DNA of 64,000 bases from Gemmatimonadota bacterium (GTDB lineage Bacteria; Gemmatimonadota; Gemmatimonadetes; Gemmatimonadales; Gemmatimonadaceae), in contig JAJTGR010000052.1 of assembly GCA_021299375.1 (NCBI GenBank), forward strand, positions 40,385-104,384, written 5' to 3'. This document shows, piece by piece, positions 14,958 through 31,196 of this stretch. The first letter of the stretch is position 1. Each line of letters begins with the position of its first letter. The notes beneath the pieces were generated by a model that saw only the letters and a list, made by a program, of their open reading frames with translations, made no database searches and had not been told where the DNA came from. The position numbers and the translations under genes are program-made.

Positions 14958-15803
14958 GTGAGCCACGAGGAGCAGGGCCCCGTTGGTGGACGCTCGGGTG
15001 TCGTGAACAAGGCGCCCGACTACCCGATCGCCGCCCCGCGCACAGCGCCTATCGCCAATCCGCTGGCCGAGTATCTCCTGCGCCTCGGCGATGACCGGCT
15101 GGTGCTGGGGCACCGCGTCTCGGAGTGGTGCGGGCACGGCCCCATCCTCGAAGAGGACATCGCGATGTCGAACATCGCGCTCGACCTCATCGGGCATGCA
15201 CAGTCGCTGCTGGCGCTCGCCGGCGAGGTGGAGGGGCAGGGGCGCACCGAGGATGCGCTGGCGTACTTCCGCGACGGCACGGCCTACCGCAACGCGTTGC
15301 TGGTGGAGCAGCCCAACGGCGACTTCGCGATGACGATGGTGCGCCAGTTCCTGTTCGACGCCTACAGCGTGCTGCTGTGGGACCAGCTGGCCAAGTGCGG
15401 GCACGAACAGCTCGCCGCCATCGCCGCCAAGTCGCTCAAGGAAGACACGTACCATCTGCGCCACAGCAGCGAATGGGTGGTGCGACTGGGTGACGGCACG
15501 GAAGAGAGCCACGCACGGACGCAGGCGGCCCTCGACGTCCTCTGGCGCTTCACCGACGAGCTGTTCGTGCCCGATGCCGTGGACGAGGCGGTCGCCTCGC
15601 TCGGCATCGTGGTGGACCACGGCGCCCTCCGCGCACTCTGGGACACGATGGTCGACGACGTGCTGCAGCGGGCCACGCTGGCGCGCCCCACGTCCGCAGC
15701 CATGCGGCGCGGCGGGCGTCGGGGGCTGCACTCGGAGCACCTGGGGCACCTGCTGGCCACCATGCAGAGCGTCGCCCGCGCGCACCCCGGCGCCACGTGG
15801 TGA
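14958..15803 (+). CDS. paaC: 1,2-phenylacetyl-CoA epoxidase subunit PaaC
   Basis: LRLGDDRLVLGHRVSEWCGHGPILEEDIAMSNIALDLIGHAQ, KEDTYHLRHSSEWVVRLGDGTEESH. Confidence 0.95.
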   Translation: MSHEEQGPVGGRSGVVNKAPDYPIAAPRTAPIANPLAEYLLRLGDDRLVLGHRVSEWCGHGPILEEDIAMSNIALDLIGHAQSLLALAGEVEGQGRTEDALAYFRDGTAYRNALLVEQPNGDFAMTMVRQFLFDAYSVLLWDQLAKCGHEQLAAIAAKSLKEDTYHLRHSSEWVVRLGDGTEESHARTQAALDVLWRFTDELFVPDAVDEAVASLGIVVDHGALRALWDTMVDDVLQRATLARPTSAAMRRGGRRGLHSEHLGHLLATMQSVARAHPGATW

Positions 15804-16303
15804 CCCCCGCGACGATGCTGTCGCGCGACGAGGTGTACGCCATCCTGCAGACGGTGCCCGACCCCGAGGTGCCGGTCATCAGTGTGGTGGAGCTGGGGGT
15901 GGTGCGCGATGTGGAGATCACCCCCGAGCGCATCACGGTGACGATGACGCCCACGTACTCCGGGTGCCCCGCGATGCGCGAAATGGAGGCCGACGTGAAG
16001 GCGGCGCTTCTCGCGCGCGGCGTGCCCGACGTGGACGTGCGCATGGTGCTGTCGCCGGCCTGGACCACGGAGTGGATTGGCCCCGAGGCGCGGGAGAAGC
16101 TGCGCAAGTACGGCATCGCGCCGCCAGGCCGGGTGGACACGAGCGGATTCGTGACGCTGACCCGTGCGCGGCCGGCGGTGCCGTGTCCCTTCTGCGGCTC
16201 CACCGACACGCGGCTGCAGAGCGAGTTCGGCTCGACGGCGTGCAAGGCGATTCACAGCTGCAACGCGTGCAAGCAGCCGTTTGATGAGTTCAAGGCGCTC
16301 TGA
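15797..16303 (+). CDS. paaD: 1,2-phenylacetyl-CoA epoxidase subunit PaaD
   Basis: VPDPEVPVISVVELGVVRDVE, TPTYSGCPAM, CPFCGSTDTRLQSEFGSTACKAIHSCNACKQPFDEFK. Confidence 0.96.
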   Translation: MVTPATMLSRDEVYAILQTVPDPEVPVISVVELGVVRDVEITPERITVTMTPTYSGCPAMREMEADVKAALLARGVPDVDVRMVLSPAWTTEWIGPEAREKLRKYGIAPPGRVDTSGFVTLTRARPAVPCPFCGSTDTRLQSEFGSTACKAIHSCNACKQPFDEFKAL

Positions 16304-16308
16304 GAGGG

Positions 16309-16616
16309 GAACGGCTCACACGGAGGGCACCGAGGACGGTGAGGGCATGGAGGAACTGCTCTCACGGAGGGCACCGAGGACGGTGAGGGCGCGGAGAAAC
16401 GGCTCACACGGAGGGCGCCGAGGACGGTGAGGGCATGGAGGAACTGCTCTCACGGAGGGCGCCGAGGACCGTGAGGGCATGGAGGAACGGCTCACACGGA
16501 GGGCGCCGAGGACGGTGAGGGCGCGGAGAAACGGCTCACACGGAGGGCGCCGAGGACGGTGAGGGCGCGGAGAAACGGCTCACACGGAGGGCGCCGAGGA
16601 CGGTGAGGGCATGGAG
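16309..16616 (+). repeat. Left array: 7 tandem copies of a 44-bp repeat, GAACGGCTCACACGGAGGGCGCCGAGGACGGTGAGGGCATGGAG-type
   Basis: Seven contiguous 44-bp units by eye; a partial eighth (ggaactgct) follows. Confidence 0.97.
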
Positions 16617-16625
16617 GGAACTGCT

Positions 16626-17009
16626 TCAGCCCCAACCGTTTACGACGCGTTGAATGCCGTCCTTGAGGCGATCGAAGCCGAAGTTGATGAGCAGGCCGGT
16701 ACGCTTCTCGGACAGGCGCAGGTAGGTCAACAGCTGCCTGAGGTAGACCGGATTGGGATTGGTGGTGCTTTTCAGCTCGACAATGACGCGGTCCTCGACC
16801 ATGAGGTCGACGCGGTAGCCAAGCGGGATGGTCATGCCGTCGTACGTGACCGGTAGGGCCAGCTGCTGCTCGACCGTCAAGCCGCGATTGCGCAGACCGT
16901 GCGCGAGGAACGCCTCATAGGGCCCCTCGAAGACCCCGGGGCCCAGCCTGCGGTGGATCTTGATCGCCTCGCCGATGATGATCTCAGTGATGTCGTCGTC
17001 AGTACGCAT
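16626..17009 (-). CDS. GxxExxY family protein, predicted PD-(D/E)XK-fold nuclease
   Basis: GVFEGPY matches GxxExxY; YRVDLMVEDRVIVELKS fits D-x(n)-ExK; RQLLTYL fits QxxxY. ATG start taken at 17007-17009 (MRTDDDITEIIIGEAIKIHRRLGPG). Confidence 0.9.
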   Translation of the reverse strand: MRTDDDITEIIIGEAIKIHRRLGPGVFEGPYEAFLAHGLRNRGLTVEQQLALPVTYDGMTIPLGYRVDLMVEDRVIVELKSTTNPNPVYLRQLLTYLRLSEKRTGLLINFGFDRLKDGIQRVVNGWG

Positions 17010-17056
17010 ACCCACACGATGCCGCCCGACGTCATCTCCCTGTCATCGCGCCGTTT

Positions 17057-17686
17057 CTCCATCCCCTTACGGTACTCCGTACCCCCCGTGTGCGCCGGTC
17101 ACCTCCGCGCCCTCACGGTCCTCCGTGCCCTCCGTGTGGGCAGTTCCTCCGTGCCCTCACCATCCTCGGCGCCCTCCGTGTGAGCCGTTCCTCCATGCCC
17201 TCATCGTCCTCGGCGCCCCCCGTGTGAGCCGTTCCTCCGTGCCCTCACCGTCCTCGGCGCCCTCCGTGTGGGCAGTTCCTCCGCGCCCTCACCGTCCTCC
17301 GTGCCCTCTGTGTGAGCCGTTCCTCCGCGCCCTCACGGTCCTCGGTGCCCTCCGTGTGGGCCGTTCCTCCGTGCCCTCACCGTCCTCGGTGCCCCCCGTG
17401 TGAGCCGTTCCTCCATGCCCTCACCGTCCTCGGCGCCCTCCGTGTGAGCCGGTCACCTCCGTGCCCTCACCGTCCTCCGCGCCCTCCGTGTGGGCCGGTC
17501 ACCTCCGTGCCCTCACCGTCCTCCGCGCCCTCCGTGTGAGCCGGTCACCTCCGTGCCCTCACCGTCCTCCGCGCCCTCCGTGTGAGCCGGTCACCTCCGC
17601 GCCCTCACCGTCCTCCGCGCCCACTGTGTGAGCCGGTCACCTCCGTGCCCTCACGGTCCTCGGTGCCCCCCGTGTGAGCCGTTCAC
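17057..17686 (-). repeat. Right array: 14 tandem units of the same repeat in opposite orientation (CTCCRTGCCCTCACCGTCCTCGGCGCCCTCCGTGTGAGCCGTTC), 44- and 46-bp versions
   Basis: Units beginning 17057, 17103, 17147, 17191, 17235, 17279, 17323, 17367, 17411, 17457, 17503, 17549, 17595, 17641; first unit is degenerate. Confidence 0.96.
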
Positions 17687-17701: not shown

Positions 17702-17743
17702 AAAAAAAAACCGGCCCCGGAGCATGAAGCCCCGGGACCGGTT
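17702..17743 (-). terminator. Rho-independent terminator of the ompA-like gene
   Basis: Minus-strand AACCGGTCCCGGGG-CTTCATGCT-CCGGGGCCGGTT followed by a T tract (+ strand AAAAAAAAA at 17702-17710). Confidence 0.88.
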
Positions 17744-17765
17744 CACTACCGCACTGCCGCGCGGC

Positions 17766-19352
17766 TTACTGCAACGCGCCGAAGCTCATGCGGCCGTTGC
17801 GCTCGGCCGCCGACCGGCAGGCCGTGGGCGCACCGGCGCCGTTGAGCTGCCAGATCTCCACGCGACGGTTGGGCGACTGGGCCGTACGGTCCGGTGCCGG
17901 CACTCGGGGGCGCGGCGACGGCGGCGGCTCCTGCTCGTTCTGCCCGTCGCGCACCAGGATGCACTGCTCGCCGAAGCTCGACGTCATGATGCGGTCCTTG
18001 ATGGACGCGGCGTCCTTGCCCGCCAGCCGGAGCAGCTGCTTGGTCACGGCCTCGGCGCGGCTCTTGGCGAGCTTGTTGTTGTACGCTTCCGAGCCGTACC
18101 AATCGGTGTGCCCCTCGATCGAGATGCGCAGCGACGGGATGCGGCGCAACGCGGCGAGCACAACCTGCAGCGAGTCGTTGCCGGCCTTCTTGATGATGGC
18201 ACGGTCGAAGTCGAACAGCGTCTGGTCGAGCGCCAGGCGCGCGACCGGCTTGACCGTGCACTCCACGCTCGCCTGCTCGCTCTTGGTGCTGCCGTAGGCC
18301 GTCTTCGACGCCGTGATCGACGTGGTGCCGGCCGCGTTGCAGGTGACCGTGCCATTGCTGACCGACGCGATCGACGCGTTGGCCGAGCCCCAGGTGATCG
18401 CGCCGAGGTCGACGTTGTTCGCGTCGACCGCCTTGGCGGTGAAGCTGATCGTCTGGCCGACTTCGGCCGAGCCGCTGCGTGGGCTCAGCGTCAGCGTCCA
18501 CGCCGGCGGCGGCACGGTGACCGTCGACGACGCCGTGCGCTCCAGCTTCTTGACCGTGCCGCGGCAGGTGATGGTGGCCGTGCCGTACTTGACAGCCCGC
18601 ACCTTGCCCGCGTTGTCAACGGTGGCCACCGACGGATCACTCGACGAGCAGGTCAGGTTCTGCACCTTGCGCAGCTCGATCGGCCGGGCCTTCATGTCGA
18701 CCGCGCTGAGCGCGAACTGGCGATCGCTGCCCGCATTCACCGTGGCGCTGGCCGGGTCCATCTTGAGCGACCAGTCGAACGGCACGGTGGTGGCACAGGC
18801 GCCGCGCAGCGCGTAGCTCACGCCGGCCCGCAGGCCCAGCTGGCGCGACGTGCCGTCGATCTGCTGCTCCTGCGGCGACGGGTCGTAGTCCATCAGGCCG
18901 TCGAGGCGCGCCCCCCACTTGCCGCTGCCGCAGATCTTGAGCCCGACCAGGCCCGTGAACGCGTCCTCGTACTCATTGGCCGTGGTGCGGCCGGCAAACA
19001 CCTGATTGGTGTAGCCGGCGCCGAGGACGAGCGCGGCCTTCTTCGACTCGGTCACCGGGATCGTGAGCGTGCCGAGACCGCGGAACGGCCGGTACGTGAT
19101 GGTTTCGAACGGGTTGCGGCTGGCCTTGGTGGACGCGACTTGGATGTCGCCCTCGACACCGAGCCACTTGTAGACCGACATGCCGAGGCGGCCACCGACG
19201 CCGAACGCGTCGTCGATGCGGATCGCCTTGTCCATCCTCGTAAACTGGCCAAAGGCGCCGATTTCGATCCGTTCACCCAGTGACTGCGCCTGAGCCGCTG
19301 GCGCCAGCACGGCGGCGGCAAGCATCGTCATTCCGACGACGGTTTTCTTCAT
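17766..19352 (-). CDS. OmpA-family outer-membrane protein with beta-barrel N-terminus and Big_2-like Ig repeats
   Basis: LFDFDRAIIKKAGNDSLQVVLAALRRIPSLRISIEGHTDWYGSEAYNNKLAKSRAEAV; SSDPSVATVDNAGKVRAVKYGTATITC repeats; signal peptide. Confidence 0.9.
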   Translation of the reverse strand: MKKTVVGMTMLAAAVLAPAAQAQSLGERIEIGAFGQFTRMDKAIRIDDAFGVGGRLGMSVYKWLGVEGDIQVASTKASRNPFETITYRPFRGLGTLTIPVTESKKAALVLGAGYTNQVFAGRTTANEYEDAFTGLVGLKICGSGKWGARLDGLMDYDPSPQEQQIDGTSRQLGLRAGVSYALRGACATTVPFDWSLKMDPASATVNAGSDRQFALSAVDMKARPIELRKVQNLTCSSSDPSVATVDNAGKVRAVKYGTATITCRGTVKKLERTASSTVTVPPPAWTLTLSPRSGSAEVGQTISFTAKAVDANNVDLGAITWGSANASIASVSNGTVTCNAAGTTSITASKTAYGSTKSEQASVECTVKPVARLALDQTLFDFDRAIIKKAGNDSLQVVLAALRRIPSLRISIEGHTDWYGSEAYNNKLAKSRAEAVTKQLLRLAGKDAASIKDRIMTSSFGEQCILVRDGQNEQEPPPSPRPRVPAPDRTAQSPNRRVEIWQLNGAGAPTACRSAAERNGRMSFGALQ

Positions 19353-29999: not shown

Positions 30000-31196
30000 T
30001 CAGTTGTCACGAACCCGAAACACGAGATCCGCATATCGCGTCACCCGCGCCACCCCCACATCCCGGGCAAAGGCGTCCATCGGCTCGACGAGCTGCGTCG
30101 TGTAGTACCCCGGCACATTCAGGGGATGCGAGCCCGGGCCGCCGAACCAACTGCGGATGATCACGCTCTCGGGGGTGCGCGGGAGCGCCTGCACGTGGCG
30201 TACGAACGTGGCGAACGTCCCGGCGCGGATCAGATAGTCCTCGACGTTCGACGTGTAGAGCACCGAGACCGCGTCTCCGCGTTGCCGCAGCAACGCCGCC
30301 ACGGCCGGTAGCACTTTCGGGCCGGCGAGGTCGCCCACGACGGGAATGATCAGGTTGCGCCGTTCGAGTGACTGCACCACGCGAAAGGCGGTCTCGCTGG
30401 CGAGATAACTGCCCTGCCGGCCGTCGAGGTCGCGTTCGGCGAGCAGCTGCCCGAGCGTCGGGTAGTACGGCCGAGGGGCGCGTCCGGTGCTGGTGAACCG
30501 GAGGCCGATGCCGTCGGTGATGAACGCCCGGTGGAATCGCGTGATCGTGGCGAGGTCCTGCGAATCGAGCGGGATGCCGAAGGTCGTGAGCCGTGCGCGA
30601 ACGGTGCGCAGCGCCGCATCGACGCTGGCGGGTGTGATGGGCGTCCGCGCGGCCCACGCCACGAGGCTGTCGACGGGCCACGCCAGCACGCGGGCACTCG
30701 GCGCCGGCGCGGGACGCCCGAGCCACAGGGCCAGAAACTCCACCCGGCTGCTGGTGGACGTGAACAGCGCCTTGAACAGCAGGTGATGCAGGAGGTTATC
30801 GCGCCGCACATCGGCGATGATCGCGAGGCGCGGTGCCACCCGCGCGAGGTAATTGAAGTTCTGGTCGGGCCCGACGCCGATGTACACGCCGCCCCGCACG
30901 CCGCGCCGATCGAGAACGGTGAGCGGATGCAGGAGGCTCTGCTCGTTGGAGATGAGGTTGTCGGTGTCGAAGTAGCCGCCCCGATCGCTGAGACGCGCGG
31001 AGAGGGCCGCGAACTCGGTGGGGGAGAGACTGTCGGGACGTTGGGCGGGGAGTGGGGCGCTGACCGCCAGCTGGGCGGGCAGGGCGAACAGCGCGAGCCG
31101 GGACAGCGCGAGCCGGGACAGCGCGAGCGGGAACGGCGCGAGCGGGAACGGCGCGAGCGGGGGGGGCGTGGCGGAGGGAGACGGGGACATCGGCAC
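30000..31196 (-). CDS. Secreted hypothetical protein, LIC_10091-like
   Basis: FDTDNLISNEQSLLHPLTVL...GGVYIGVGPDQNFNYLARVAPRLAIIADVRRDNLLHHLLFKALF. Confidence 0.65.
   Translation of the reverse strand: MPMSPSPSATPPPLAPFPLAPFPLALSRLALSRLALFALPAQLAVSAPLPAQRPDSLSPTEFAALSARLSDRGGYFDTDNLISNEQSLLHPLTVLDRRGVRGGVYIGVGPDQNFNYLARVAPRLAIIADVRRDNLLHHLLFKALFTSTSSRVEFLALWLGRPAPAPSARVLAWPVDSLVAWAARTPITPASVDAALRTVRARLTTFGIPLDSQDLATITRFHRAFITDGIGLRFTSTGRAPRPYYPTLGQLLAERDLDGRQGSYLASETAFRVVQSLERRNLIIPVVGDLAGPKVLPAVAALLRQRGDAVSVLYTSNVEDYLIRAGTFATFVRHVQALPRTPESVIIRSWFGGPGSHPLNVPGYYTTQLVEPMDAFARDVGVARVTRYADLVFRVRDN
31086..31160 (-). repeat. 15-bp tandem repeat x5 within the signal-peptide-coding region
   Basis: GAACAGCGCGAGCCG / GGACAGCGCGAGCCG / GGACAGCGCGAGCGG / GAACGGCGCGAGCGG x2. 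Confidence 0.92.

Follow-up and report, generated by a model that had tools for sequence, protein, structure and literature searches.

The mirrored arrays between paaD and ompA

We analyzed a 64,000-nucleotide stretch of DNA from a Gemmatimonadota bacterium (the window), in which a GxxExxY gene lies between two repeat arrays. This array/ORF unit is flanked by convergent neighbors, paaD and an ompA-family gene:

15797-16303, + strand: paaD (PF23451, PF01883; stop at 16303), left border of the insertion site; the paaD-ompA order is conserved in same-genus genomes
16308-16625, + strand: left array of seven arm units, each 44 bp long, whose + strand is rich in purines and which read towards the ORF (TRF; inverted partner of the right array)
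16626-17015, - strand: GxxExxY ORF, 129 aa, occupying the loop that the arrays enclose and modeled as a PD-(D/E)XK nuclease of the lambda-exonuclease/Cas4 type (TIGR04256, PF13366, structure model, Foldseek)
17050-17684, - strand: right array, ~14 arm units with lengths of 44 and 46 bp that repeat the left array in reverse complement (TRF; 90% complementary to it)
17703-17745, - strand: hairpin serving as terminator of the ompA-family gene and preserved in relatives with an empty junction (sequence; corresponding hairpins in the empty junctions)
17766-19352, - strand: OmpA-family gene (PF00691, PF02368), right border of the insertion site

In the window, TRF reported 7.2 copies of a 44-bp period for the left array (90% match) and 14.2 copies of the same period for the right array (88% match). 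A repeat search divided the right array into two parts, with 44-bp units from 17102 to ~17410 and 46-bp units at ~17410-17685, and paired the two arrays as inverted arms of 310-314 nt with 90% complementarity. Read from the sequence, each 44-bp unit consists of four ~9-bp sub-units and an 8-bp link, with the composition ACACGGAGG GCRCCGAGG ACGGTGAGG GCATGGAGG AACGGCTC. These results bear out an earlier sequence-only reading, which had counted seven left and fourteen right units of 44/46 bp in inverted orientation, with exactly one gene, GxxExxY, between them. As that reading had also concluded, the arrays are not CRISPR, because their units follow one another head-to-tail without unique spacers. 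It also proposed that a single transcript could fold into a stem with the gene in the loop. The fold predicted for the gene strand is a long stem whose loop contains the ORF; this fold is predicted because the arrays are complementary, and it is silent on function.

No Rfam family scored above its gathering score at the locus, and the searches gave no support for reading it as an RNA family (Rfam), a phage or a defence locus. The unit sits between paaD and ompA rather than in 23S rRNA and encodes only the GxxExxY ORF, with no transposase.

The ORF matches TIGR04256 with 125 bits (cut-off 35) and PF13366 with 121 bits (cut-off 22). A structure model of the protein reached a mean pLDDT of 93.6, and Foldseek placed the model among PD-(D/E)XK nucleases; the best PDB matches were LHK-Exo, SSO0001 (a Cas4 protein) and lambda exonuclease, with TM-scores near 0.5. 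The fold match comes from Foldseek only; a profile search against PDB sequences returned no relative. Among 24 relatives, Y33 and E80 do not vary, and conservation is at least 90% at D70 and K82. The Q-x-x-x-Y pattern recalls RecB/Cas4 nucleases. Thus, judged from the model, the GxxExxY protein has a lambda-exonuclease/Cas4-type PD-(D/E)XK fold. It shares this fold with Cas4, lambda exonuclease and RecB-type nucleases and gives weak Cas4-like profile matches (Cas4 was the sole match among the known defence families of PADLOC, E 0.044). Unlike them, it stands alone at 110-130 aa, in the window outside any CRISPR or phage recombination module.

GxxExxY proteins are a widespread nuclease family of obscure function, whose name appears in just two papers of a library of 5.39 million, a single time in each and in at least one of them only incidentally. 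TIGR04256 was found in 69 of 99 genomes of the host bacterial family. The gene was not found in 50,697 phage records and is present in 8 plasmid records; the one match among IMG/VR viral contigs (L288 2091-2603) is likewise flanked by inverted arms that follow the shared consensus described below.

Inverted arms around GxxExxY and four-helix-bundle genes

We compared the 500 bp to the left of each gene with the 500 bp to its right and scored inverted matches of at least 34 bits. In the host family, such arms lay outside the ORF at 39 of 94 GxxExxY loci but in only 2 of 620 random intervals of the same loci. Direct matches were much less enriched (14/94 GxxExxY loci versus 23/620 random intervals), and PIN-domain genes of the same genomes had inverted arms in 0 of 25 cases. 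Most of the armed units (26 of 39) resemble one hairpin split by the ORF, and four are bracketed by two whole hairpins. Over half of the GxxExxY loci in the host family, and most same-genus units, had no detectable arms. The proposed co-occurrence of inverted repeats with GxxExxY genes exceeds chance locus by locus, but gene and repeat do not track each other significantly from genome to genome: among the 99 genomes, the gene is carried by 13 of the 16 with at least three motif matches and by 56 of the 83 others. Motif copies are present, with no GxxExxY gene found, in G071, G088 and G093.

We also examined the best 80 GTDB matches to one query, a set that is not a random draw and that spans 17 phyla by the NCBI labels of the protein tree, with Methanosarcinales and Methanophagales included. 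Inverted arms were present at 51 of the 77 testable loci and in none of 512 random intervals; with a weaker threshold, the counts rose to 61 loci and 10 random intervals. The arm consensus is TTMACC followed by two to four CRCRRAG units, mostly spaced 8-9 bp apart, and the purine-rich arm is 5′ of the gene in 49 of the 51 armed loci. Terminal inverted repeats resembling those of IS and MITE elements are therefore present around GxxExxY genes. The oriented motif pair occurred at 51/77 GxxExxY loci, 1/713 random intervals, 0/23 four-helix-bundle loci and 0/25 PIN loci; since the motif was derived from the same arms, it is the controls rather than the raw rate that carry weight here, and the BLAST arm test does not depend on the motif. 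For 33 of the 61 units with a usable score, the best partner of the left arm among all 77 right arms was its own; the arms of one unit thus resemble each other in more than the general consensus. Neighboring genes were fully co-directional at 29 of 42 multi-phylum loci, but not in the high-GC host-family set, for which crude ORF calling is unreliable, and we do not count the 29 of 42 as evidence.

The paaD-ompA arrays are an extreme case of this general GxxExxY rule. Long arrays are atypical, the usual form being one 30-45 bp arm per side, and those in the window are best read as a local tandem amplification of one arm. As the design of a gene between mirrored repeats is found across bacteria and archaea, it seems to represent a family of selfish DNA units that has yet to be described, and not a local oddity. 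In the literature searched, whose coverage leaves out most subscription papers and preprints, we found no earlier description of GxxExxY hairpin units and no mention of the arm sequences as text strings.

The same layout surrounds four-helix-bundle/S23 genes (TIGR02436). In the host family, inverted arms flank 20 of 23 full-length loci; seven further loci end at contig ends, where coordinates are unreliable, and were not counted. In named plasmid records, mostly cyanobacterial, the corresponding count is 10 of 11. The arms of these units are tandem heptamers, with a period of 7 in 20 of 25 measurable loci compared with 0 of 33 GxxExxY loci, where the period is 8-11 bp. As four-helix-bundle units share the layout without a nuclease, nuclease activity is not needed for it. 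Cyanobacterial TIGR02436 genes with such arms lie between cas6 and cas4, between cas10 and a cmr3-family gene, and between ribonucleotide reductase genes (L118-L147, L326-L336).

Gene-less hairpins, insertion sites and turnover

The host genome, a 4.48-Mb draft in 116 contigs, contains the window repeat at about a dozen other places. Most of these copies are single intergenic hairpins of ~100-250 bp that run from a purine-rich arm through a loop to a pyrimidine-rich one. Some copies form arrays where a contig ends, and the repeat is the last sequence of several draft contigs. The unusual GTGAGGG sub-unit seen in the window arms recurs in these copies, and in 8 of 11 stand-alone hairpins the two arms match each other best. 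We detected no GxxExxY gene in the hairpin loci of this genome, and no arms at its three other GxxExxY genes. This goes part of the way towards what the sequence-only reading said would refute it, arrays at intergenic sites with no GxxExxY association: gene-less copies are common in the host's own genome, and repeat abundance does not follow gene presence significantly across the 99 genomes. On contigs C36 and C20, the whole hairpin, with a window-type arm, forms a ~124-bp tandem array (L019 1-455, L022 1-325); both arrays are cut by contig ends, and the contigs may be chromosomal neighbors.

In three genomes whose dispersed copies we read out (G012, G034 and G083), the copies start with CACC and finish with GGTG. 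Their length is nearly uniform within G012 (158-162 bp) and within G034 (~81-87 bp). Among the motif matches listed for the genomes surveyed, the purine arm comes first in 16 of 16 close opposite-strand pairs counted. No target-site duplication was visible by eye around gene-less copies. In all five cases tested, the arms of the gene unit matched the resident dispersed family best; in four of these cases a genome's unit was compared with copies from that same genome, and in the fifth G040 was compared with a congeneric genome. For a sixth, G070, no copies from the genome itself were sampled. Together with the two arm surveys and the best-partner comparison, this strongly supports the proposal of a self-contained gene with cognate inverted repeats and extends it beyond this locus.

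Comparison of the paaD-ompA junction among relatives, which the sequence-only reading had suggested, revealed that the unit is missing from the same junction in same-genus genomes. In five of them the gap measures 96-129 bp, most of the others hold different, gene-less palindromes, and that of G106 holds a different GxxExxY gene (47% identical). These relatives are too diverged for a base-exact insertion junction or target-site duplication. Other contents were seen at the same junction: G113 (L260) has a gene-free palindrome of 648 bp that carries GTCGGGGTC-type repeats, and yet another palindrome, of 151-155 bp, is present in several sister species. G103 (L266 1980-2909) and G101 (L267), 97.5% identical upstream, share a left arm that is followed by nested hairpins in one species and an unidentified open frame in the other; this is at a contig end, where an assembly effect is possible.

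Units elsewhere also occupy gaps between genes, which in named isolates are neighbors of the operon type. A Bacteroides finegoldii unit lies between radA and a gene for an FAD-dependent protein, and a Sphingomonas parapaucimobilis unit lies between fabD and fabG, beside a retained TTGGAG ribosome-binding site of fabG; in Sphingomonas paeninsulae, Rhizobium and Methylobacterium, these two genes are separated by a short gap that holds no unit. A Rhodocyclaceae unit separates trpE-like and trpG-like ORFs (names read from translations). This apparently single trp operon holds two GxxExxY genes (L178 4001-4348 and 6797-7186), the first with clear arms.

At one site in the sister species G101 and G103, two GxxExxY genes are 57% identical between flanks that are ~85% identical. 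The DNA between these flanks does not align; the right end is similar and the left ends differ. A pair of orthologous GxxExxY loci that are ~93% identical (L353 and L085, from G113 and G069) is set apart by a 132-bp tandem duplication beside the gene. In the GxxExxY protein tree, phyla are mixed at supported branches (the label changes 37 times, where 16 changes would be the minimum), and the tree is also clustered by phylum label beyond chance. The absence of the unit from the same junction in relatives and the mixing of phyla in the tree support the part of the sequence-only reading that saw a mobile or selfish island.

Possible mechanism and relation to known systems

A model that probably describes these units is that of a selfish hairpin element resembling REP/RAYT systems, with a GxxExxY nuclease gene in the loop between complementary, directional arms. 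The gene-bearing copy, with arms built of 8-9 bp purine-rich motifs, would be the master, and gene-less hairpins with the same arms would be its dispersed, non-autonomous copies. Units would spread between lineages and settle in intergenic gaps, including those of operons. The nuclease may be the trans-acting factor for the arms, cutting or trimming them as hairpin or single strand and thereby copying or maintaining them. In the window, an arm would have been tandemly amplified 7x and 14x into minisatellite-like arrays, which may have grown by slippage or unequal exchange. In practical terms, a fixed cis-element beside the GxxExxY gene offers a concrete handle on the substrate of the nuclease.

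RAYT genes are flanked by inverted REPs and have cognate dispersed palindromes (PMC2817692). GxxExxY units likewise have a single gene flanked by inverted repeat copies, cognate gene-less copies, and a gene that diverges faster than its neighbors. However, the GxxExxY protein is modeled as a PD-(D/E)XK nuclease and not an HUH tyrosine transposase of the IS200/IS605 type, the arms consist of tandem motifs of 8-9 bp and have CACC ends whereas REPs are short tagged palindromes, and the correlation of gene and repeat across genomes is not significant. Because enzyme, repeat type and genome-level correlation differ, GxxExxY units would work like REP/RAYT without belonging to it. With MITEs and insertion sequences they share directional terminal inverted repeats and near-uniform gene-less copies, but the unit has no transposase and no target-site duplication was resolved.

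An unlikely alternative is that the unit acts in RNA, as the intervening sequences (IVS) of 23S rRNA do: it would be part of host transcripts, its arms would pair in RNA around a loop with the ORF, RNase III would trim it, and spread at the DNA level would be rare and due to host enzymes. In the Coxiella IVS, a stem-loop with terminal repeats and tandem heptamers of variable number contains an S23p ORF (PMC4990558). Its layout matches that of our units, in which terminal inverted repeats likewise enclose a small ORF and the arm has variable-number short tandem repeats, and four-helix-bundle/S23 genes outside rRNA share it. The predicted fold, a long stem with the ORF in its loop, and the units that lie inside operons, in the reading direction in named cases, are also what this alternative expects. 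In its differences from the IVS, the GxxExxY unit lies outside rRNA, its ORF is a predicted nuclease instead of a four-helix bundle, and its period is 8-9 rather than 7. Against the RNA alternative, dispersed gene-less hairpins with conserved directional ends fit a DNA element better, and orientation relative to neighboring genes is inconsistent between samples.

Still less probable is that the hairpins spread by another mechanism, and that their loops capture or tolerate small orphan genes, GxxExxY among them, that exert no action on the arms. Such passengers would account for gene-less hairpin families in genomes with no GxxExxY gene found, for sister species whose paaD-ompA junction has hairpins without a gene or other contents, and for two unrelated protein families sharing one layout. 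However, each gene family has an arm consensus and a period of its own (8-11 bp for GxxExxY, with 0/33 at 7; 7 bp for four-helix bundles, in 20/25), and PIN genes were found in such loops in 0 of 25 cases. Random capture would not produce this pattern.

We consider it very unlikely that the arms serve the host, as transcription terminators or mRNA-stabilizing stems of an ordinary, vertically inherited gene. The 3′ arm does directly follow the stop codon, a few hairpins are followed by T-runs, and the ompA terminator adjoins the array. But arms are present on both sides, match each other beyond the consensus, are conserved over phyla and occur dispersed without the gene, and terminating units in operons would cut off downstream essential genes. 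The several draft contigs ending in the repeat might suggest that assembly, or simply repeat-rich DNA, produced the layout as an artefact. The controls exclude this for practical purposes, since the layout recurs in many independent assemblies and named isolates and is not seen in random intervals or around PIN genes.

Returning to the selfish hairpin element, a wider version of it is quite possible, if somewhat short of probable: GxxExxY and four-helix-bundle/S23 genes would be the master genes of an unrecognized, pan-prokaryotic class of selfish hairpins, whose arm period would depend on the gene family (8-9 versus 7 bp). Copying would be unlike known transposition and, in the GxxExxY branch, would involve a Cas4/lambda-exonuclease-like nuclease acting on arm hairpins. 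Such a class could explain many orphan dispersed palindromes and the cyanobacterial STRRs, which are intergenic, hairpin-forming short tandem heptamer repeats (PMC2670836). STRRs resemble GxxExxY arms in being short intergenic tandem repeats able to form hairpins, but they are heptamers, and in our sample heptamers flank four-helix-bundle genes and not GxxExxY. The Coxiella IVS, the STRRs and the four-helix-bundle units look like one thing seen from different angles. If the gene family dictates the arm period, the intervening sequences of rRNA, the heptamer repeats of cyanobacteria and a large number of orphan palindromes would all come under one rule, and the long-standing question of how bacterial intergenic repeats originate would become directly testable.

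Elsewhere in the window, at 31088-31162, we observed a 15-bp tandem array of five copies of ACAGCGCGAGCGGGG.
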